A stretch of 22,763 nucleotides of DNA, taken from IMG/VR virus record IMGVR_UViG_3300025282_005260, positions 1 to 22,763 of that record; one strand, given 5' to 3'. This document shows, piece after piece, positions 2,677 to 18,864 of this stretch. The stretch's first letter is position 1. Every line of letters starts with the position of its first letter. The translations under genes were made by a program, and so were the position numbers. The DNA comes from a virus. The notes beneath the pieces were generated by a model. The model made no database searches and was not told the DNA's origin. It saw only the letters and a list, made by a program, of their open reading frames with translations.

Positions 2677-3093
2677 ATGAGCGATGTAAACAAAGTTATT
2701 ATCACCGGCAGGGTCACTAGAAATAGTGAATTGCGTGAGACCCCCGCAGGAACCCCCGTCACAGACATCAGTGTGGTTTCCAATCGCATTTGGACAAAGA
2801 ATGGGGATCGTCAAGAAGACGCTACCTTTGTCGATGTTACCATTTGGGGTAAGCAAGCTGAGACGCTCAGTCCCATGCTTACAAAGGGACGCCATATTAT
2901 GGTTGAAGGACGACTCAAGCTTAATAGCTGGGAAACAGACGAAGGAGTTAAGCGTAATAAGCTTACCGTGGTTGCAGAAAGCGTTAATCTTACGCCTTCT
3001 AATCCCAACCCGCAGAGAAGTTCAGAACAAGCTGCTCCCGTTCCTGTGGCAGTAGGAGCTTCTCCGCAGACTGAGGACGACACTCCGTTTTAA
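2677..3093 (+). CDS. ssb: Single-stranded DNA-binding protein (OB fold)
   Basis: The protein has 138 residues. ATG 2677 has AAGGA 7 bp upstream. Residues 1-108 form a bacterial-type SSB OB-fold: NKVIITGRVTRNSELRETPAG, the TFVDVTIWGKQAE core and the KGRHIMVEGRLK segment. A Pro/Ser/Ala linker follows, and the protein ends in an acidic tail DDTPF, the motif by which bacterial SSB recruits partner proteins. It protects and organises phage ssDNA during replication with the helicase, primase and recombinase at 17.4-22.5 kb. It is directly followed by a structured RNA element. Confidence 0.93.
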   Translation: MSDVNKVIITGRVTRNSELRETPAGTPVTDISVVSNRIWTKNGDRQEDATFVDVTIWGKQAETLSPMLTKGRHIMVEGRLKLNSWETDEGVKRNKLTVVAESVNLTPSNPNPQRSSEQAAPVPVAVGASPQTEDDTPF

Positions 3094-3101
3094 TTATTTT
3101 T

Positions 3102-3303
3102 AAGGGTAGCTCCCTTAATAAAGGAAGGTGGCTGAATAACCGCAGCAAGCAAGAGGCGGTAAGGCACGAAACCTGTAGAGTATGACCAAAGGGTTGAGGC
3201 TACAGGAAGAAGTACAAAGTAGGGAAGCCCGTCAAACGGTGGACAGATTTTGCCCTGAAAAGTTGTAGGTAACTAACTGTTAATCCTACCCTTCCATTTT
3301 TTT
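3102..3303 (+). ncRNA. Structured RNA element of unknown class between ssb and glycosyltransferase
   Basis: A 240-bp gene-free stretch folds by eye. A closing helix pairs AAGGGTAG (3102-3109) with CTACCCTT (3286-3293). Inside it are ACCGC/GCGGT (3139-3143 with 3156-3160), CCTGTAG/CTACAGG (3172-3178 with 3200-3206), and AGGG/CCCT (3221-3224 with 3253-3256) enclosing CCGT/ACGG (3229-3232 with 3236-3239). A T-run (3297-3303) follows. GTAGG/CCTAC (3265-3269 with 3285-3289) would compete with the closing helix, so it could act as a switch between terminator and antiterminator. No own promoter is visible; it is probably transcribed with ssb. It could be a riboswitch-like leader of the glycosyltransferase or a free ncRNA. 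Confidence 0.55.
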
Positions 3304-3333
3304 CTTTTGAGGAGTGGCTAGAAGAAGAGAGCT

Positions 3334-4407
3334 ATGACGAAGAATATTAATATACTGGCTCCGATTAATAATTTAGGCTACGGTGTAGCATCCATTAACA
3401 TATGCAAATCTCTCTCAAAGAGAGGGTCAAACATATCTCTTTTTCCCATCGGGCAGCCTGTTTTTTCATCTCAGCAGGAAGCCAATGATATTAATCCATT
3501 CGTCCAAGCACAAGGGGACTTTGATTCGTCGGCGCCGTGCCTGAAAGTGTGGCACGAACATAGCATGGGAGAAAGGGTGGGAAGAGGCAAGCTTGTTGGC
3601 TTTCCGTTTTTCGAAGTAAATAAATTTGATCCCCCTCGCAAAAATCACCTTTCTTCTTGTGATGAAATTGTTGTGGCATCACAATGGGCGCAAGAGATAG
3701 TGGAGAAGGAGATCCCCTCCTCAAAGACTCATGTTGTTCCTCTTGGAGTGGATACATCTATATTCATTAATAACAATCCACCAGCAGCAGACAAATTTAT
3801 TTTCTTCAACTGCGGAAAATGGGAAAAAAGGAAAGGTCACGATCTTCTTATATATCTTTTCAGAGAAGCCTTTAAGAGCGAGCCGGATGTTGAGCTTTGG
3901 ATGATGTGCAACAACCCCTTTCTCTCTCCAGAGCAACACTCCCAATGGGTAAATCTTTATAAACAAGATCCAAGAGTAAGACTTTTGGATCGTGTACAAT
4001 CGCAGCTAGAACTATCGCACATAATGAACTCTACAGATTGCGGTATTTTTCCAAGCCGTGCAGAAGGATGGAATTTAGAGATTCTGGAATTGATGGCAGT
4101 TGGAAAACATATTATTACCACAAATTATTCTGCACATACGGAGTTTTGTAATGAAAAAAACAGCATGCTAGTCACCCCTAAAAACAAAGAGCGTGCCATT
4201 GACGGTCAATTTTTTAATGGCTTTGCTGAATGGGCATCTCTAGAGGGCACAGAACAAGAATTTATCAGGCACATGCAAGACATGTACCAGAAATGGAAAG
4301 AAAATGGCAGACAAAGACTTGTCAATGAAGAGGGGGTTAAGACTGCCGAAAAATTTTCGTGGGACGCAACAGCCCAAAAACTAGGGGACATATTATATGC
4401 TAATTAA
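3334..4407 (+). CDS. GT4-type glycosyltransferase (GT-B fold)
   Basis: The protein has 357 residues; ATG 3334 follows an AAGAAGAGAG stretch. The N-terminal domain begins with a Rossmann-like strand and Gly loop (INILAPINNLGYGVASINI). The C-terminal domain has the family pattern: GKWEKRKGHDLLI at 161-173, then SRAEGWNLEILELMAVGKHI at 241-260, which is the nucleotide-sugar-binding E-x7-E region of GT4 enzymes, then TTNYSAHTEF. It transfers a sugar from an activated donor. Candidate acceptors are phage DNA bases, a virion protein or a host surface glycan; the sequence does not decide. It sits downstream of the structured RNA and overlaps dUTPase by 11 bp. Confidence 0.85.
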   Translation: MTKNINILAPINNLGYGVASINICKSLSKRGSNISLFPIGQPVFSSQQEANDINPFVQAQGDFDSSAPCLKVWHEHSMGERVGRGKLVGFPFFEVNKFDPPRKNHLSSCDEIVVASQWAQEIVEKEIPSSKTHVVPLGVDTSIFINNNPPAADKFIFFNCGKWEKRKGHDLLIYLFREAFKSEPDVELWMMCNNPFLSPEQHSQWVNLYKQDPRVRLLDRVQSQLELSHIMNSTDCGIFPSRAEGWNLEILELMAVGKHIITTNYSAHTEFCNEKNSMLVTPKNKERAIDGQFFNGFAEWASLEGTEQEFIRHMQDMYQKWKENGRQRLVNEEGVKTAEKFSWDATAQKLGDILYAN

Positions 4408-4819
4408 GGTGCAAAAGGTGTGCCCACACATCCCGCTTCCTTCAAAGGGTCACCCCTCAGACGCAGGCTGGGATCTATATGCCAACGAAGACTGTACGAT
4501 AGGAACTTGGACACGAAGGCTTGTTGATACAGGAATCAAGCTCGAAATACCAGAAGGATATGTGGGATTGATTTGGCCAAGGTCAGGTCTCTCGGTTAAA
4601 AAAGGCATTGATGTCTTCGCAGGGGTTATAGATTCGGGATATCGTGGTGTCGTAAAGGTGTGCCTTTATAACTCTAGCTTTGAGAATGTTGATATTAACA
4701 GACACGACAGGATAGCCCAAATTATTTTTCAAGAAGTCCCTTCATTCAACATTGGGGAAGTAGAAATGTTAGACGAAAGCCCTAGAGATGATGGGGGTTT
4801 CGGGAGTACCGGAAGATGA
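4397..4819 (+). CDS. dut: dUTPase (deoxyuridine triphosphatase)
   Basis: The protein has 140 residues, the usual trimeric dUTPase length. All five motifs are visible: SDAGWDLYA (21-29), PRSGLS (61-66), GVIDSGYRG with catalytic Asp79, RIAQIIF (105-111) and the mobile C-terminal arm GGFGSTGR (133-140). It hydrolyses dUTP to dUMP and pyrophosphate, which keeps uracil out of phage DNA and feeds thymidylate synthesis. The start overlaps the glycosyltransferase by 11 bp, and the stop overlaps the next ATG (ATGA), so the three genes are translationally coupled. Confidence 0.95.
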   Translation: MLIKVQKVCPHIPLPSKGHPSDAGWDLYANEDCTIGTWTRRLVDTGIKLEIPEGYVGLIWPRSGLSVKKGIDVFAGVIDSGYRGVVKVCLYNSSFENVDINRHDRIAQIIFQEVPSFNIGEVEMLDESPRDDGGFGSTGR

Positions 4820-5450: not shown

Positions 5451-5864
5451 ATGAAAGATTTGTTTAGATACTTCAAAAGTTTGATTAAAAGAAGGGACAT
5501 CCCTTCCTCTCAAGATGTAACGCCCGACCTCCCAGATACTTCGGGATGCATTCATTTCTTCTGGGACTCGCGGACAGGAGATTTTAATGTAATTTTAAAA
5601 GTAGATGAAGACACTGAAATGTCTGCTGAAATTCTGGGAATGCTTATGTGCTATATTGGCGAGGGACACATGACACAATTCCTTGCAGAAAGCTTACGGT
5701 ACTGGTGTGACTCTCCAAATAAGATGGAGTTTTACACAAACACTCTCAAGGCTTGGAATACTATGAAAGAATTACAGCAAGAAGAGCGTAGATACGAAGA
5801 AGAAAAATCTCTGATTGATCCATCTGACGTATTTAGATTCAAAGGCAATGGAAATGGCAATTGA
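5451..5864 (+). CDS. Unknown phage protein, probably translated from a leaderless mRNA
   Basis: The protein has 137 residues, with ATG 5451 fixed by the promoter that ends 5 bp upstream. It begins basic (FRYFKSLIKRR). A central region (GCIHFFWDSRTGDFNVILKV) looks like a beta hairpin, and the rest is helical, with acidic and polar residues to the end. No signal peptide or catalytic motif is seen. It overlaps the next gene by 11 bp. I do not recognise the family; similar small proteins are common in large phages. Confidence 0.7.
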   Translation: MKDLFRYFKSLIKRRDIPSSQDVTPDLPDTSGCIHFFWDSRTGDFNVILKVDEDTEMSAEILGMLMCYIGEGHMTQFLAESLRYWCDSPNKMEFYTNTLKAWNTMKELQQEERRYEEEKSLIDPSDVFRFKGNGNGN

Positions 5865-6042
5865 TTTTTGTGATTACGACGACGGCAAAGGTAATGTTTG
5901 TAATAGACGTCCTGAGATTGTAGTAAAGAAAAAAAACCACACCATTTATTTGTGTAAACGGTGTCTTTATATGATGGATGTCGATCCAGATGCCGATGAA
6001 GTGGCCTACTTTTCTCAATATGGAAGGGAAAAAGATGCGTGA
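5854..6042 (+). CDS. Small zinc-ribbon-like protein
   Basis: The protein has 62 residues. ATG 5854 is preferred over ATG 5848 because AAAGG at 5841-5845 then has normal spacing. Cys6 and Cys16 followed by CKRC near residue 34 give a probable four-Cys zinc site, with KNHTIYLCKRCLYMM as its second knuckle. It overlaps the upstream gene by 11 bp and the next start by 8 bp. It is one of several small zinc-binding proteins in the window. Function is unknown; DNA or protein binding is inferred. Confidence 0.65.
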   Translation: MAIDFCDYDDGKGNVCNRRPEIVVKKKNHTIYLCKRCLYMMDVDPDADEVAYFSQYGREKDA

Positions 6043-6517
6043 AAACATTCCAATTCCGAGCGGTTATGATGTTTATTGGGAAAAATGGGTAGATGCCTAC
6101 AGTCCCGAGATGGAAACTGATGCCATTGATATGGTAGAGGAATTTTCCGAAGAGGACCACGGAGTATCCTTCGAGGAAGAATTGGGGGCAGAATTCAAAA
6201 AATTTAAAAATATTCAAACTATTTTTACTCCATTTGGAATACTACCTCTTACAGAGCACTCTCTCGCAAGCACTTACTTTAAATTTTGGGTAGGTCATAC
6301 AAATTTTAAAATAACCCCGGCGTTTTACCGGATAATTTCTAATGTTGATGGTGTAGAATCCATTGATATTTTTACCCCTTATCGTTTTCGTATAGGAATA
6401 GCCACGCTATTTAAAGATAGGACAGTTATGGCGCAAATAAGACAAAAGACGATTGATTATATTAAGGGAACTAAAAATGCCTCCTCCCAGAAAACCAACG
6501 ATAGCAGAGGCACATGA
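6035..6517 (+). CDS. Conserved-type phage hypothetical protein
   Basis: The protein has 160 residues. ATG 6035 has GGAAGG upstream, while in-frame ATGs further up lie inside the previous gene without a ribosome site. The first half is acidic. The second half (FKFWVGHTNFKITPAFYRII, then VDGVESIDIFTPYRFRIGIA) is a compact alpha/beta region that I recall from other large phages without a known function. It overlaps the ClpP-like gene by 41 bp with a frame change, a longer overlap than elsewhere here. Confidence 0.65.
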   Translation: MRENIPIPSGYDVYWEKWVDAYSPEMETDAIDMVEEFSEEDHGVSFEEELGAEFKKFKNIQTIFTPFGILPLTEHSLASTYFKFWVGHTNFKITPAFYRIISNVDGVESIDIFTPYRFRIGIATLFKDRTVMAQIRQKTIDYIKGTKNASSQKTNDSRGT

Positions 6518-7142
6518 TAATTGTGTCATAGCATCCAGTAGGGAAATATTTTTACACAACCATTTTGAAGAAGAAGATCCGGGCATAGACTATCGAGCTT
6601 CCACTAAATTTCTTACCAATCTGCGTATTCTTGAGGAGCAGAATCACAAGCCCATAATAATACATCAGCATTCCACAGGGGGAGAGTGGCATGCGGGGAT
6701 GGCAATCTATGACGCCATAAAGGGAAGCCCATGCAATTTTATATTTATTTGTCATGGAATCTGTGCTTCAATGGGGAGCATCATAGCCCAAGCCCCTCTC
6801 GGTAAAGGGGTGCGAGTCTCAATGCCAAATTGCGATTGGCTAATACATGATGGGTCTTGCTCTGTTGAAGGAACCTACAAGCAGGCGTTTTCTATGTATG
6901 AGTTCGAAAAGAAAATTCTAGATAGAAGCTACGAAATATATGCCGAATCTTGCGAGAAAACGGGAGACTACTTTAATGGAGGAAAAAATATTTCGGCAAA
7001 AAAATTCATAAAAAGACAACTAAACTCTAAAGAAGACTGGTGGATTACATCTGAGGATGCGGCATATTACGGATTTGCTGATGGCGTTTTTGGAGAAAAG
7101 GGTTTTGATTCATTAGAAGAAATTAAGAAAAATGTGTCTTAA
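6477..7142 (+). CDS. ClpP-like serine protease
   Basis: The protein has 221 residues. ATG 6477 follows AAGGGA. The ClpP fold is clear: HSTGGEWHAGMAIYDAI (oxyanion Gly-Gly), the nucleophile in CASMGS (Ser98), MPNCDWLIHDGS with His124, and EDWWITSEDAAYYGFADG with Asp187 aligned to the ClpP catalytic Asp. Phage ClpP-like enzymes usually mature the prohead or act as peptidases. No portal or capsid gene is adjacent within the window, so a virion-maturation role is only possible. A host-directed function is an alternative. No ATPase partner is present. Confidence 0.85.
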   Translation: MPPPRKPTIAEAHDNCVIASSREIFLHNHFEEEDPGIDYRASTKFLTNLRILEEQNHKPIIIHQHSTGGEWHAGMAIYDAIKGSPCNFIFICHGICASMGSIIAQAPLGKGVRVSMPNCDWLIHDGSCSVEGTYKQAFSMYEFEKKILDRSYEIYAESCEKTGDYFNGGKNISAKKFIKRQLNSKEDWWITSEDAAYYGFADGVFGEKGFDSLEEIKKNVS

Positions 7143-7212
7143 TGGCACTCATTAGGTGTAATTAATAAGCAGGACAGGATTTCTATTGTTTGGATCTATA
7201 GGATATAAAATA

Positions 7213-7233
7213 ACCTCTATTTAGAAAAGAGGT
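7213..7233 (+). promoter_or_regulatory. Leader hairpin covering the ribosome site of the virion-type gene
   Basis: ACCTCT (7213-7218) pairs with AGAGGT (7228-7233); the right arm is the Shine-Dalgarno sequence of ATG 7241. The region 7143-7212 is AT-rich; GATATAAAAT near 7203-7210 may be a promoter. Such leader hairpins can stabilise mRNA or modulate translation. Confidence 0.5.
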
Positions 7234-7240
7234 AAATGTT

Positions 7241-7861
7241 ATGGCTTTTGTTACTAATCTTGACGGTACGCTTAAATACAACCAGTACGTTAACGGCTTC
7301 CCCAGTGGAGTGGACAACGATCAGGGTAACATTCGTGGCCAAGGCCCTTCGGGGGCTCTGGCTGGAGTGGATTCTAATCTGTGGAGTCAAAATTCCCTAG
7401 GAGAAGAGGAGCGATTTGTTCTAATCTCTTCAGGTGTTAATAATACGGGTGTTATTGCTCCCTCCACAGCGAGCACATTCAACAATCAACCGGGTCAGGT
7501 GATTGTTAAGTACACTACCGATATCGCTGGTGTTAGCGATCTTACGCAGGCCGTTCGGTCAGCCGGTAGTTCTGGAATTATTTCTATTAACCAACGAGCA
7601 GTAATTAGAACCCTTGACTACAAAGTGTCAGTGGTAGCTGGTAACTGGAACATTTTCAGTGGTGCATTTGACCCAGCCCTTTCAACCAGCACAGCAGGTG
7701 GCTGGAATATCATAGGCGGAGTCGATCAATCCAGCAGTTTGATAGGAGATCAAACTGATAAGGCTGCCAATCCAAGTCAAACGGAACCGGGACACCTTGC
7801 ATATATGTATGGTAACCCGATTGCAAAGACCGGACTGTATTCGTCACGATCTGTGTGGTAA
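7241..7861 (+). CDS. Probable virion structural protein (unknown family)
   Basis: The protein has 206 residues with AGAGG 8 bp before the ATG. The composition is rich in Gly, Ser, Asn, Thr and Val, low in Lys and free of Cys, with predicted beta-strands (VIVKYTTDIAG, DYKVSVVAGNWNIFSG, GGWNIIGGVDQ), as in decoration, tail or fibre proteins. It stands apart from its neighbours, has its own hairpin leader, and is followed by strong UUCG hairpins. Its base composition is more GC-rich than its surroundings, which fits a highly expressed gene. Structural identity is inferred, not shown. Confidence 0.65.
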   Translation: MAFVTNLDGTLKYNQYVNGFPSGVDNDQGNIRGQGPSGALAGVDSNLWSQNSLGEEERFVLISSGVNNTGVIAPSTASTFNNQPGQVIVKYTTDIAGVSDLTQAVRSAGSSGIISINQRAVIRTLDYKVSVVAGNWNIFSGAFDPALSTSTAGGWNIIGGVDQSSSLIGDQTDKAANPSQTEPGHLAYMYGNPIAKTGLYSSRSVW

Positions 7862-11867: not shown

Positions 11868-11891
11868 AAATATTTACCAAGGAGAATGGAA

Positions 11892-13139
11892 ATGCTTGAC
11901 TTTTATGCAAACAGACGTGACTTTCTAAGGATAGGTAGTATTGGGGCTGGGATGTCCTCTCTAGGGCTTTCTGATGTTGCTATGGGTGAGGAGACCCAAG
12001 AACTTAAAGATAGCTCTGTGGTGTGGGTGTGGCTTGGAGGGGGTCCAACACAATTCGAAACGTTCCATGCGCCCAAGGAAGACAGCGTTCCTGATGAATA
12101 TAGATCTGTAGGAGGAGCGTTGGTAGACAAACCTACCGGAATGGCTTTCGGTTCTCATTGGCAAAATCTAATCAAACAGGCTCCGCACCTCAATGTTGTA
12201 GACTCTTTTACCCATGGAGACTCTTCTCATAGGCAGGCTACACACTGGGTAATGACAGGACATCGCAACAATAACAGAAGTCAAACATCCGGCCCTATGT
12301 TTCCCTCCCACGGATCAATAGTTTCTTCGATTTATGGGGCCAATCATCCCGAAAATGGTGTTCCTTGTTATGTTAAACAGGGAAGAATAGAGGGCGAAGA
12401 TCCTTCTTGGCTGGGAGGAGCGTATAAGCCCTTTGATCCCTCAAATAAGGACAACCTGACTCCCAGAGTAGACATTCAGCGATTTGTAGATCGGAATGAA
12501 CTTCTAAAGAGCCTCGGAGGGAATCCTATAGCAAGTCCTTCTGCTAATTCCGTTACCAAGTTTAACAGTCAAGCGTTTGATGTGATTCTTGGAACGGCAA
12601 AAGACGCTTTTAATCTGGATAAAGAAGACGCTAAGACAAAAGAATCCTACGGAAACGCTGCGATTGGAAAGCAACTCCTTCTTGCTAGAAGGCTTTGTGA
12701 GTTTGGGACTAGGTTTGTAACCATTCATTATGGTGGGTGGGACATGCATGGCAATATCGCCAACGCTTTAAAGGGAAGAGTGCCTCCCATCGACAAAGCC
12801 CTTGCTGCATTTGTTAAAGATGTGCATCAAAGGGGCCTTAATGAAAAGATCCTATTGATCGTCACGGGAGAATTCGGTCGCACTAAATTAAATAAAAATG
12901 CGGGACGTGATCACTGGCCTTCAATTTCTACAATGCTTATGTCAGGGGGAAGATACGATAGTGGCAGGGTCATCGGCAAAGCCGATAAGTCCTACACACC
13001 AAAAGAAAGCCCCTATGGGCCCATTGATGTTGCTGCCACTATGTTTGATCACTTCGGTATTCCAAAAAATATTCAAAAGGTAGACAATGGTGGCCGTCCA
13101 CGATACTTACTAGAAGGGGAGGCGAAAGTAATTCTGTGA
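11892..13139 (+). CDS. DUF1501 protein with twin-arginine signal
   Basis: The protein has 415 residues from ATG 11892, which has AAGGAG with 7 bp spacing; ATG 11886 (417 residues) is too close to it. NRRDFLRIGSIGAG is a Tat export signal. Family landmarks are GGGPTQFETFHAPK, HRQATHWVMTGH, SWLGGAY, HYGGWDMHGN, TGEFGRT followed by GRDHWP, and GPIDVAATMFDHFGIP. DUF1501 proteins belong to the sulfatase/alkaline phosphatase-like superfamily and are typical of planctomycetes. The conserved His and Asp residues look like the metal-ligand set. The substrate is unknown. It is very unusual in a phage and was probably taken from a host. Confidence 0.88.
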   Translation: MLDFYANRRDFLRIGSIGAGMSSLGLSDVAMGEETQELKDSSVVWVWLGGGPTQFETFHAPKEDSVPDEYRSVGGALVDKPTGMAFGSHWQNLIKQAPHLNVVDSFTHGDSSHRQATHWVMTGHRNNNRSQTSGPMFPSHGSIVSSIYGANHPENGVPCYVKQGRIEGEDPSWLGGAYKPFDPSNKDNLTPRVDIQRFVDRNELLKSLGGNPIASPSANSVTKFNSQAFDVILGTAKDAFNLDKEDAKTKESYGNAAIGKQLLLARRLCEFGTRFVTIHYGGWDMHGNIANALKGRVPPIDKALAAFVKDVHQRGLNEKILLIVTGEFGRTKLNKNAGRDHWPSISTMLMSGGRYDSGRVIGKADKSYTPKESPYGPIDVAATMFDHFGIPKNIQKVDNGGRPRYLLEGEAKVIL

Positions 13140-13336: not shown

Positions 13337-13492
13337 ATGAATAAATATATAGAGGCTCTTAGTAAATACTTTAAGTCCAAAGCTGACTATAAATACGAAG
13401 ACCCCATGACAGGTGAGGTTTTTACCTATAAAAGAAAGGGAATATACAAAAAGAACGGACGAGTTCTTCGACTTGTAAGGGGTTCCGAATGA
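13337..13492 (+). CDS. Small basic protein of unknown function
   Basis: The 51-codon frame runs from ATG 13337 to TGA 13490-13492, which overlaps the ATG of the next gene (ATGA). TGAGG lies about 10 bp before the start. The protein is rich in Lys and Tyr (YFKSKADYKYED, then GIYKKNGRVLRLVRG) and looks like a compact beta-type domain. No family is recognised. The overlap with the Fe-S carrier gene supports that it is translated. Confidence 0.55.
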   Translation: MNKYIEALSKYFKSKADYKYEDPMTGEVFTYKRKGIYKKNGRVLRLVRGSE

Positions 13493-13812
13493 CAATTAAA
13501 CTAACAGAAATCGCAGCGGCAGAAGCTAAAAAGTATCTTGAAGATAGCGAAGAAAAGTATTTAAGGGTTGGCGTAAAAGGAGGTGGCTGCTCTGGCTTTG
13601 AATACAACCTCACGGTAGGCCATGAATACGATGAAGAAAAAGACACATTATCTCATCAACATGGAGTAGATGTTATTGTAGATAAGAAAAGTGCCCTCTA
13701 CTTAGAAGGCACTACATTGGATTATTATTCTGATATTTCTAAACGTGGCTTCAAATTTGATAACCCTAATGCAGTAAAAAGTTGTGGATGTGGAAGTAGT
13801 TTTCAAGCGTAA
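13489..13812 (+). CDS. A-type iron-sulfur carrier (IscA/ErpA/HesB family)
   Basis: The protein has 107 residues, the normal family length, with AAGGGG before ATG 13489. The three conserved Cys are Cys34 (GGGCSGFEY) and Cys99/Cys101 (SCGCGSSF). These proteins bind and deliver [2Fe-2S] or [4Fe-4S] clusters to client enzymes in the cytoplasm. Phage copies are known in aquatic viruses. Here the likely clients are unknown, since no obvious Fe-S enzyme is nearby. It is followed by the UGA-containing gene with its own strong ribosome site. Confidence 0.93.
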   Translation: MTIKLTEIAAAEAKKYLEDSEEKYLRVGVKGGGCSGFEYNLTVGHEYDEEKDTLSHQHGVDVIVDKKSALYLEGTTLDYYSDISKRGFKFDNPNAVKSCGCGSSFQA

Positions 13813-13831
13813 TTTTATAAGGAGAAAAGAA

Positions 13832-14110
13832 ATGACTAATATTGGAGACTGGCTACAAAGAACCGAGAAACCTCTTGAAGGCAAAGAGGCCTTTGACTGA
13901 CACGACTTCTCTGTTGCGCAGGTTGCGCACATTGATGAAGAAGGCGTTCACGTAGAATTTGCCTGCAACTGTATGACATTTGATGGTAGTAGCACTAAGA
14001 TGTGGTATAATGGTGAATATGAGGTTCTTGACGACAAGTCCTACGAGGCTTGTAAGGTGGCACATGATGCCCAGTGTGCATTTGATAGAGAGTTAGAAGT
14101 CTCTATATAA
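13832..14110 (+). CDS. Putative phage selenoprotein with in-frame UGA at codon 23
   Basis: ATG 13832 has a strong AAGGAG 7 bp upstream. The frame reads 22 codons to TGA (13898-13900) and then continues open to TAA 14108-14110, for 92 residues. Sequence after the TGA looks coding: balanced composition and CNC (45-47), WYNGEYEV, YEACKVAHDAQC. A hairpin with bulged U and GGU loop follows the TGA at the spacing of the bacterial SECIS, so the codon is read best as selenocysteine (FD-U-HDF). Other genes here use TGA as true stop, and both Trp codons in this gene are TGG, which argues against genome-wide recoding. The alternative is a nonsense mutation of Trp. The function is not recognised. Confidence 0.6.
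13906..13940 (+). promoter_or_regulatory. Bacterial-type SECIS hairpin
   Basis: TG-(T)-TGCGCA (13912-13920) pairs with TGCGCA-CA (13924-13931), leaving a bulged U at 13914, and GGT (13921-13923) is the apical loop. CTTC (13906-13909) can pair with GAAG (13937-13940) below an internal loop. Counting from the U of UGA the bulge is position 17, as I recall for E. coli fdhF; the upper stem is 2 bp longer. UGACACG at the codon is also shared with fdhF. SelB would bind the bulge and loop. Confidence 0.6.
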
Positions 14111-14135: not shown

Positions 14136-14492
14136 ATGAATAGCAAATTAATTGTTTTTCTTTTATTGTTAAATTTAGTTACTACCTTGGTGGTGGGATA
14201 TACAGTATACACAAATGTCTCCAAAGAGTATAATATAACAGTGGAGGCTTCTTCTCTTCCTGAAGACTCTGAAGATCCCGAAGATAAACAATTTAAGATA
14301 GATATGTATAATGGGCTTTCAAATTTAATGTTGGGACAAAACTATCTCAACGTTGGGCTTTTAAGAATTCACCACTATGCAGAACCACATGCAGATAAAT
14401 TTTATGAAAACTGTCCTGATTGTGAATTAGAAAAACAGCGAATCCTAAAGGAAGAAAAGGACGGCTTTACTTCCAACATGAAAGGATTATAA
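14136..14492 (+). CDS. Membrane-anchored protein of unknown function
   Basis: The protein has 118 residues with GAAGGAG before ATG 14136. Residues 5-25 form a transmembrane or uncleaved signal segment (LIVFLLLLNLVTTLVVGYTV). An acidic stretch follows (LPEDSEDPEDK), and then a helical domain with CPDCELEK near residue 90, which could be a metal or redox CxxC. The C-terminal domain is probably outside the membrane. A TATAAT site and an in-frame GTG at codon 36 inside the gene are noted separately. Its stop overlaps the next ATG by one base. Confidence 0.65.
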   Translation: MNSKLIVFLLLLNLVTTLVVGYTVYTNVSKEYNITVEASSLPEDSEDPEDKQFKIDMYNGLSNLMLGQNYLNVGLLRIHHYAEPHADKFYENCPDCELEKQRILKEEKDGFTSNMKGL

Positions 14493-14702: not shown

Positions 14703-15701
14703 ATGATTAAAGTCGGAGTGGTGGGCTACGGTACCATAGGAAAGCGTGTAGCAGACGCCGTACTACTGCAAGATGACATGGAGCTTGTCGGCATTACAGC
14801 AAACAGCTACAATTATAGAATTAAGACAGCTCAACAAAAGGGAATCAAGATATTTCCCATGACGGCTGGATATGAGCATATAGAACACGGTATAAATGTA
14901 GCTGGCTCTGTTGACAATTTAATTGAAAGATGTGATGTGGCTGTAGATTGCACCCCTAAGGGCGCTGCTTGTAAAAACAAAGAGATGTATAAAAGGCATC
15001 GAGTGAAAGCAATATTTCAGGGAGGGGAAAGCTCTGAGGTTGGACAAAGTTTTGTAGCTCAATGTAATTACAAAGAAGCAGTTGGGGCAGATTTCATTAG
15101 AGTAGTTAGCTGCAATACCACGGGCCTTTGCAGAACACTTCACGCTATAGACTGGAAATACGGAATAAAAGGAGTTCACGCGACTATGGTAAGAAGAGCC
15201 GCTGACCCTTGGGACATACGTCATGGGCCAATCAATGCTATAGTGCCCAACTTGGTGCTACCCTCCCATCACGGGCCAGACGTGAGAACTGTTTTGCCCA
15301 ACATAGAAGTATTTACCATATCTCTGTCTGTTCCAACAACTGTTATGCATATGCATAGTCTAACCGTAGATTTAGAAAAACAAGCCGATATTAAAGGAAC
15401 AATAAAACTATTCAAAGACACTACCAGAGTAAGAATGGTTAAAAACACTGAAGGAATAAGATCTACTGCTGAAATCATGGAGTATGCTAAAGACATTGGA
15501 AATTCCAGAGGAGATATGCCAGAAATATGCGTTTGGGAAGAAACAATCGGTACGTGGGGAAATAAATTATTTTATTTACAGGCTGTTCACCAAGAGAGCA
15601 ATGTAGTGCCAGAGAATGTTGATGCAATCCGGGCAGCCATAGGAGTTTGTAGTGGAGAGGAAAGCATAAGAAAAACAAACGAGAGCATGAGTCTTCATTA
15701 A
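14703..15701 (+). CDS. Archaeal-type (type II) glyceraldehyde-3-phosphate dehydrogenase
   Basis: The protein has 332 residues, matching type II GAPDH rather than the bacterial gapA family. KVGVVGYGTIGKRVADAV is the NAD(P)-binding Rossmann loop. The active-site Cys137 lies in VSCNTTGLCRT. RRAADPWDIRHGPINAIVPN, PSHHGPDVRTVLP, PTTVMHMHS, CVWEETI and LQAVHQESNVVPENVDAIRA are strongly conserved blocks of the family. It oxidises glyceraldehyde 3-phosphate with phosphate to 1,3-bisphosphoglycerate and makes NAD(P)H. In a phage this is highly unusual; NADPH supply for nucleotide reduction is one hypothesis. The ribosome site is weak. Confidence 0.92.
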   Translation: MIKVGVVGYGTIGKRVADAVLLQDDMELVGITANSYNYRIKTAQQKGIKIFPMTAGYEHIEHGINVAGSVDNLIERCDVAVDCTPKGAACKNKEMYKRHRVKAIFQGGESSEVGQSFVAQCNYKEAVGADFIRVVSCNTTGLCRTLHAIDWKYGIKGVHATMVRRAADPWDIRHGPINAIVPNLVLPSHHGPDVRTVLPNIEVFTISLSVPTTVMHMHSLTVDLEKQADIKGTIKLFKDTTRVRMVKNTEGIRSTAEIMEYAKDIGNSRGDMPEICVWEETIGTWGNKLFYLQAVHQESNVVPENVDAIRAAIGVCSGEESIRKTNESMSLH

Positions 15702-17481: not shown

Positions 17482-18451
17482 GGATATTATTAAAGAATAC
17501 GGTAACGTTCTTCATGATCCTTCAGTAATAACAGATCGCCCCCTCAAAACTCTTTCCGTAAGCCCTAAAATAGACATTGCTCTGGGGGGCGGAGTACCAG
17601 AGGGTTCTCTGTTTATCATGACAGGCCCAGAAAAGGTTGGAAAAACCGTAACAGCCCTTGCATTTTGCGCAAACGCCCAAGAATACGAACGAGATGTATA
17701 CTATGCCAACATAGAGGGGAGGCTAAGAAAGCGGGACTTAGAAGGCATTAGTGGGCTTGATCTTAATGCTGAGACAATGCAAATTATTTCCTCCACCGAG
17801 GGCAATATTCTTTCAGCAGAAAAATATCTGTCAATAATAGACAACATAGTCCACACAAAACCGGGATCAATAGCGGTAGTGGATTCCTTCTCGGCTTTGG
17901 CGAGCGAGTCTGAGCTAACAGGGGACCTAGCAGACGTGCAAGTTATGAGTGTACAAAAAATACTGGCTAAGTTCTGCCGCCGTATATCAAATGCTCTACC
18001 TATAAATCGAGTCACCGTAGTGGGAATTACTCACTTGATGGCAAACGTTCAAAAGTTTGGTCGTGGAAAAGCTAAAATAGAGAAGTCTGGGAGTGCTCTT
18101 AAGTATCAAGTGGATGTTAAGCTACATGCCAGCCACTCGCAGCCCATCATGCAGGGAGATACCCAGATTGGACAGACTGTAAATTGGCAAGTGATGACCT
18201 CTGCCATCGGGCCGCCGGGACAGAAGGTTGCAAGTCACATCAAATATGGTCGAGGGATCTGGAAAGAGATGGAGCTTGCCGACCTTATGGTTGACTTCGG
18301 CCTTGTTGTCAAGTCTGGATCTTGGCTCAAGCTTCCTAACGATGAAAAGATTCAGGGAAAAGTAAATCTCGCATCCTACCTAGAGGAAAACCCTAAAGAG
18401 TATAAGAGCTTTGAAAAAGAAGTATTTACTATGGTTGGAATTGAAAAGTGA
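17474..18451 (+). CDS. RecA/UvsX-like recombinase
   Basis: The protein has 325 residues. ATG 17474 is preferred over TTG 17471 and follows AGAGAG. Walker A is GPEKVGKT (51-58) and Walker B IAVVDSF (Asp137). Glu in YYANIEG fits the catalytic Glu of RecA folds. The region VVGITHLMANV has His where bacterial RecA has Gln, as in UvsX. It forms a filament on ssDNA and drives strand exchange for phage recombination and repair with SSB, the nuclease (18448) and the helicase (19939). It overlaps both neighbours by 8 and 4 bp. Confidence 0.88.
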   Translation: MNKDIIKEYGNVLHDPSVITDRPLKTLSVSPKIDIALGGGVPEGSLFIMTGPEKVGKTVTALAFCANAQEYERDVYYANIEGRLRKRDLEGISGLDLNAETMQIISSTEGNILSAEKYLSIIDNIVHTKPGSIAVVDSFSALASESELTGDLADVQVMSVQKILAKFCRRISNALPINRVTVVGITHLMANVQKFGRGKAKIEKSGSALKYQVDVKLHASHSQPIMQGDTQIGQTVNWQVMTSAIGPPGQKVASHIKYGRGIWKEMELADLMVDFGLVVKSGSWLKLPNDEKIQGKVNLASYLEENPKEYKSFEKEVFTMVGIEK

Positions 18452-18864
18452 AAATTCGAGACCTAAACAATGAAAGTAATAATTGGAATTTGCAAGGATA
18501 CGTAACAAAAGCAAATGACACAAGGCCTCGTTCCAAGCTACACTTGAAAGCAAAAAACCTTCTCGTTGAACTTTTTCCTACGGTCCAGATCCTAGAAGAA
18601 GTAGCCATACCGATCACAAGAAACGAAAGACTCTTCTTTGATTTCTATATTAACACCCTCAAGTTAGCAATAGAAGCCCACGGAGAACAGCACTATAAGT
18701 TTAATCCCTTGTTTCACACGTCTGCGCAGGATTTTGCTCACCAACGAAAAAGAGATGCGCGCAAAAAGGAATGGTGCGAGTATAATAATATTACATACGT
18801 CGCACTTCCGTTTAATGAGAAGGTCGAAGAGTGGAAAAGCCGAATACTGCAACGGAACAATTAG
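18448..18864 (+). CDS. PD-(D/E)XK-like endonuclease
   Basis: The protein has 138 residues from GTG 18448, overlapping the recombinase stop. FFDFYINTLKLAIEAHGEQHY gives a likely active site with Asp65 and Glu76, and the following HQRKRDARKKEWCEYNNITY with a final LPF strand matches the Vsr/DUF559-like restriction-endonuclease fold. Phage members act as single-strand, flap or recombination endonucleases. Placement directly after RecA suggests processing of recombination or replication intermediates. The exact substrate is not visible. Confidence 0.75.
   Translation: MKIRDLNNESNNWNLQGYVTKANDTRPRSKLHLKAKNLLVELFPTVQILEEVAIPITRNERLFFDFYINTLKLAIEAHGEQHYKFNPLFHTSAQDFAHQRKRDARKKEWCEYNNITYVALPFNEKVEEWKSRILQRNN

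Follow-up and report, generated by a model that had tools for sequence, protein, structure and literature searches.

A conserved in-frame UGA followed by a SECIS-like hairpin marks a putative selenoprotein gene in a phage lineage

Is the single in-frame TGA of a small phage gene a stop, a defect or a codon for selenocysteine? The question is raised by a reading frame in the window, the whole stretch of 22,763 bases of the virus record IMGVR_UViG_3300025282_005260 that was analysed (Table 1). Selenocysteine (Sec) decoding at UGA through a SECIS element is known in bacteria. A sequence-only reading of this DNA had described a 92-codon gene with a strong ribosome site, broken by a single TGA at codon 23 and coding behind it, and had proposed a putative selenoprotein. 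The gene was found as described: it starts with ATG at 13832, is preceded by AGGAG and ends with TAA at 14108-14110. A purine-rich site is present at a similar position in most relatives.

Table 1. Coordinates of the putative selenoprotein gene, its elements and its neighbours in the window
Feature	Position	Strand	Evidence
DUF1501 protein	11886..13139	+	PF07394, E 1.3e-60; at least one copy nearby in relatives with enough flank
IscA/HesB-type Fe-S carrier protein	13489..13812	+	PF01521, E 1.7e-20; neighbour in several relatives
Shine-Dalgarno AGGAG	13820..13824	+	sequence
Putative selenoprotein gene, 92 residues, Sec at 23	13832..14110	+	frame open except for one TGA; 12 versions; low dN/dS 3' of the TGA
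Proposed Sec codon 23, in-frame TGA	13898..13900	+	no variation among the 12 distinct versions
SECIS-like hairpin: U17, stem TGCGCA 13915-13920 with TGCGCA 13924-13929, loop GGU 13921-13923	13914..13929	+	pairing, covariation, synonymous constraint, synonymous null 9/2000
118-aa protein, no Pfam match above cut-off	14136..14492	+	next gene in the closest relatives

The five contigs retrieved by the first search were nearly identical, and each had the TGA; more distant relatives were reached via neighbouring genes and a profile. Together, the window and 16 other IMG/VR virus contigs present 12 distinct versions of the gene, with a lowest protein identity to the window of 54 %. Codon 23 was TGA in all 12, which originate from many metagenomes and assemblies, and none of them encoded cysteine or tryptophan at this position. 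Sec or Cys codons in homologues had been named beforehand as support; TGA was present throughout, the hoped-for TGC or TGT in no homologue. Selection was purifying 5' and 3' of the TGA: synonymous changes far exceeded amino-acid changes in most pairs compared, and dN/dS behind the TGA was 0.03-0.17 in the pairs where it was computable. Thus the frame is still coding after the TGA, as had been claimed, and the conserved UGA and the coding on both sides of it are direct observations. Among the matches listed, codon 23 was the sole conserved internal TGA in a sense frame seen in the phage DNA analysed; the other conserved internal TGAs of the scan were mostly minus-strand shadows of real genes and true gene ends. 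A DNA pattern scan with codon 23 left free, a second profile search and a pattern of the C-terminal half returned the same 16 contigs and no further relative. Ten more contigs from the C-terminal pattern had frames unrelated to the gene and were rejected, likewise contig L006 (Caldilineaceae), a chance match of 20 residues within an unrelated frame. Neither 50,697 phage records nor 72,556 plasmids yielded a homologue, and searches of viral contigs, phages, plasmids and 400 Chloroflexota genomes revealed none with Cys; the absence of the protein from the latter genomes says little.

Immediately downstream of the TGA lies the inverted repeat TGCGCA-GGT-TGCGCA, as the sequence-only reading had noticed. 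Counted from the U of UGA as position 1, positions 18-23 pair with 27-32 around the GGU loop at 24-26. Across the versions 98.6 % of the pair cells were standard, and sliding the stem register destroyed the pairing, with no slid register coming near. The proposed look for compensatory changes in relatives revealed two covarying pairs, 18-32 (C-G or U-A) and 21-29 (A-U, G-C or G-U), both varying on either side; all 12 versions belong to one phage lineage, and as few as two or three events may account for this covariation. At either pair, one arm changes silently where the opposite arm alters an amino acid (A29 GCG/GCA with A32V; V/I28 with H/Q33R), a pattern that protein selection alone would not be expected to produce. 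Synonymous codon identity was highest at codons 21-33 (0.82 versus 0.55 elsewhere, permutation p 0.0005). When the same protein was encoded by random synonymous codons, an equally stable SECIS-like hairpin was obtained in 6-45 of 2000 draws (0.3-2.3 %), and a hairpin as stable follows 6 of the window's 696 TGA triplets. The plain folding energy was unremarkable (z -1.1), thus the evidence is comparative and positional rather than thermodynamic. The conserved hairpin, its covariation and the codon constraint are observed directly. A bulged U had been claimed at position 17. The U itself is there (13914, invariant in 12 of 12 versions), but the bulge is supported in part: six versions allow U17 to form a pair with A33, and in the window the fold of lowest energy has C33 bulged rather than U17. 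No second SECIS of this type turned up in 950 kb of related phage DNA.

The element was compared with that of E. coli fdhF, taken from the genome NC_000913. The agreement noted earlier in the codon context TGACACG and in the U at position 17 proved correct: UGACACG and positions 16-20 (GUUGC) are identical. Both elements have U17-U18-G19-C20 and AGGU at the loop and are situated within the coding region just after the UGA. The apical stem of fdhF consists of 4 bp with a GGUC loop, whereas that of the phage gene is 2 bp longer (6 bp) and carries GGU. The bulged U17 is a feature of the fdhF type; in the phage versions the U is invariant, but the bulge is not consistent. Whereas fdhF encodes formate dehydrogenase, the phage protein matches no known family in sequence and is, as first stated, not a formate dehydrogenase.

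Four constraints of the bSECIS model (PMC13188914) were applied to all 12 versions. The model places an apical loop of 3-9 nt on a stem of 4-16 bp; the versions have loops of 3 or 5 nt on stems of 6-7 bp. A G is expected within the first two loop positions (PMC13188914), which is provided by GGU in 11 versions and by a 5-nt loop, AGGUA, in one (L122). The distance from UGA to loop, 16-37 nt in the model (PMC13188914), was 20 nt, but 19 in L122. For a limit of at most -7.5 kcal/mol (PMC13188914), folding energies over 45 nt were -7.6 to -13.6 in 12 of 12 versions; the hairpin only gave -6.0 to -8.2. Like the known prokaryotic selenoprotein families (PMC13188914), the phage gene combines an in-frame UGA with a consensus-fitting bSECIS, in contrast to them it is phage-borne, without sequence match to any of them and without Cys homologues in the data searched. 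Nearly all known selenoproteins have a Cys homologue, which is usual, not universal (PMC13188914). Among the marks by which selenoproteins are recognised, an in-frame UGA conserved in 12 of 12 versions within a coding frame of low dN/dS was present; no homologue was found with Cys at the Sec position.

Selenocysteine decoding of UGA codon 23, leading to a 92-residue selenoprotein, is by far the best explanation for these comparative data, and we consider it highly probable. The retention of the TGA and of the downstream hairpin in all 12 versions strongly suggests that the infected cell reads the codon as selenocysteine, and together with the compensatory changes it supports the initial interpretation. 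Speaking against it are the lack of a Cys homologue in the data searched, the restriction of the 12 versions to a single phage lineage, the ordinary folding energy, a stem longer by 2 bp than that of E. coli and a U17 without a clear bulge. Programmed readthrough stimulated by the hairpin, by which some of the products would receive tryptophan or a different ordinary residue from a near-cognate tRNA, is unlikely. It gains from UGA-C being a leaky context and from the ability of a downstream hairpin to promote readthrough, and from the lack of a Cys homologue in our searches. However, the UGA was never exchanged for UAG, UAA, TGG or a sense codon among the 12 versions, and the hairpin has the spacing and the loop of a SECIS in an fdhF-like context. 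The UGA also falls within the block of highest conservation in a small single domain, and termination there would leave a useless 22-mer. The arrangement might be divided into two units, with the UGA terminating a leader peptide of 22 codons that regulates a restarted downstream gene, in view of the strong ribosome site before a short frame and an invariant Met48 after the UGA. This division has a very low probability, since the protein sequence of codons 24-47, directly behind the UGA, is conserved, the window contains no ATG, GTG or TTG between codon 23 and codon 48, and the leader frame stays in phase past the UGA in 12 of 12 versions.

One stop in an otherwise open frame would also be left by a nonsense mutation, a pseudogene or a sequencing error, but the same TGA in 12 distinct sequences of many assemblies, together with the low dN/dS, refutes this and reduces its probability to almost nil. 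The outcome that had been named in advance as speaking against a selenoprotein, TGG at codon 23 and a hairpin that is not conserved, did not occur; TGA and hairpin were present in every version. A reassignment of UGA to tryptophan in phage or host, for which nothing beyond the in-frame TGA speaks, is just as negligible. TGA terminates 10 of the 36 listed ORFs in the window, several of which overlap the next start, and the true stops cited earlier at 4819, 9675, 13139 and 18451 were all correct. In two versions, L058 and L123, the terminal stop of the gene itself is TGA. Thus the codon is not reassigned. Tryptophan is encoded by TGG, as had been stated; the listed ORFs have 109 such codons and lack an in-frame TGA.

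If UGA is decoded as selenocysteine, the host SelB carrying Sec-tRNA would bind the hairpin (U17, six base pairs, GGU loop) whose start lies about 14 nt behind the UGA, and selenocysteine would be delivered at codon 23 in place of termination. We infer both the Sec at residue 23 and the origin of the machinery in the host. Searches of Pfam, PHROGs, NCBIfam and PDB with the 92-residue protein yielded matches at chance level only. The motif FD-U-H(D/E)(F/Y)S(I/V)AQV is conserved across the TGA. Invariant residues include U23, H24, C45, C47, H78 and C82, that is Sec-His, Cys-x-Cys and His-x3-Cys, as well as Met48; the former six suggest a metal or redox site to which Sec would contribute. The AlphaFold model is a small barrel plus a C-terminal helix (pLDDT 81.5, pTM 0.69; pLDDT 77 with 12 sequences). 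The best fold matches were SH3-like barrels, weak and with no E below 0.001. The protein may be a small factor with a redox or metal-binding role, Sec23-His24 acting together with Cys45, Cys47, His78 and Cys82, and is perhaps linked to the phage genes for Fe-S proteins (IscA, SufB) and DUF1501 proteins.

In the window the gene is located downstream of a ribonucleotide reductase with an insertion domain of the B12-dependent type. A DUF1501 gene aligns from directly behind the gene in L121, L122, L124 and L125, and the long relative G005 (125 kb) contains a SufB core gene and four DUF1501 proteins. Several diverged DUF1501 paralogues are arranged in tandem in G005, L121, L123 and L124. At L162 of G005, a DNA polymerase III alpha homologue is present in two pieces (2885-4741 and 5849-7480) with other genes between, possibly a split gene. 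The window itself (+ strand) also carries a glyceraldehyde-3-phosphate dehydrogenase-like phage gene at 14703-15701 (C-terminal domain PF02800) and an HNH homing endonuclease gene at 18448-18864 that overlaps the end of the UvsX-like recombinase gene. A manA-like RNA (RF01745; 3100-3299, +), which at 28.4 bits (E 0.0008) stays under the gathering score, directly precedes a glycosyltransferase gene at 3334-4407. In the related virus contigs L147, L148 and L150, tmRNA genes were predicted with the tags AESNLAIAA, AEPSLALAA and VEENFALAA.

The sequence-only reading had expected a phage without own Sec machinery. In agreement, selB was not found in 15 related phage contigs and tRNA-Sec above the Rfam cut-off in none of 31, all of these contigs being fragments. 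Matches to the tRNA-Sec model were below the cut-off and were identified by ARAGORN as ordinary tRNAs for Arg, Ile and others (eight loci checked). The simplest reading of this absence is that the host supplies the machinery. A host search via the helicase, ribonucleotide reductase, UvsX-like, terminase and polymerase genes led to distant isolates only, none above 60 % identity.

An earlier report of a bacteriophage-encoded selenoprotein was not found in the literature searched, which mostly lay outside subscription journals. Phages and viruses go unmentioned in a 2026 review on the selenoproteins of prokaryotes (PMC13188914). According to a marine survey, the metal and selenium protein families examined have, except for three named ones, few or no viral sequences (PMC9402790). 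Viral selenoprotein genes that use the Sec machinery of the host are represented by the glutathione peroxidases of the poxviruses fowlpox and molluscum contagiosum (PMC8310308); these are acquired cellular enzymes of eukaryotic viruses, whereas here a bacteriophage encodes a protein without family match. Basilisk-like Bacillus phages likewise link phages and selenocysteine through a tRNA-Sec gene; this tRNA gene only, and no phage selenoprotein, was noted for them (PMC6145125), in contrast to the phages studied here, which have no tRNA-Sec above the cut-off.

We lean towards an obligate Sec family restricted to phages, without Cys or cellular relatives, that borrows the host machinery and uses Sec23-His24, Cys45, Cys47, His78 and Cys82 as a catalytic or metal site. 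If selenocysteine is indeed inserted, the gene would add a selenoprotein family without known Cys relatives and would show a marine phage lineage exploiting the selenium metabolism of its host. It would serve as a genomic marker of selA, selB, selC and selD in the host, and gene callers would truncate such phage genes at the UGA. With a phage-only Sec family, the host range of these phages would be tied to selenium-using bacteria.
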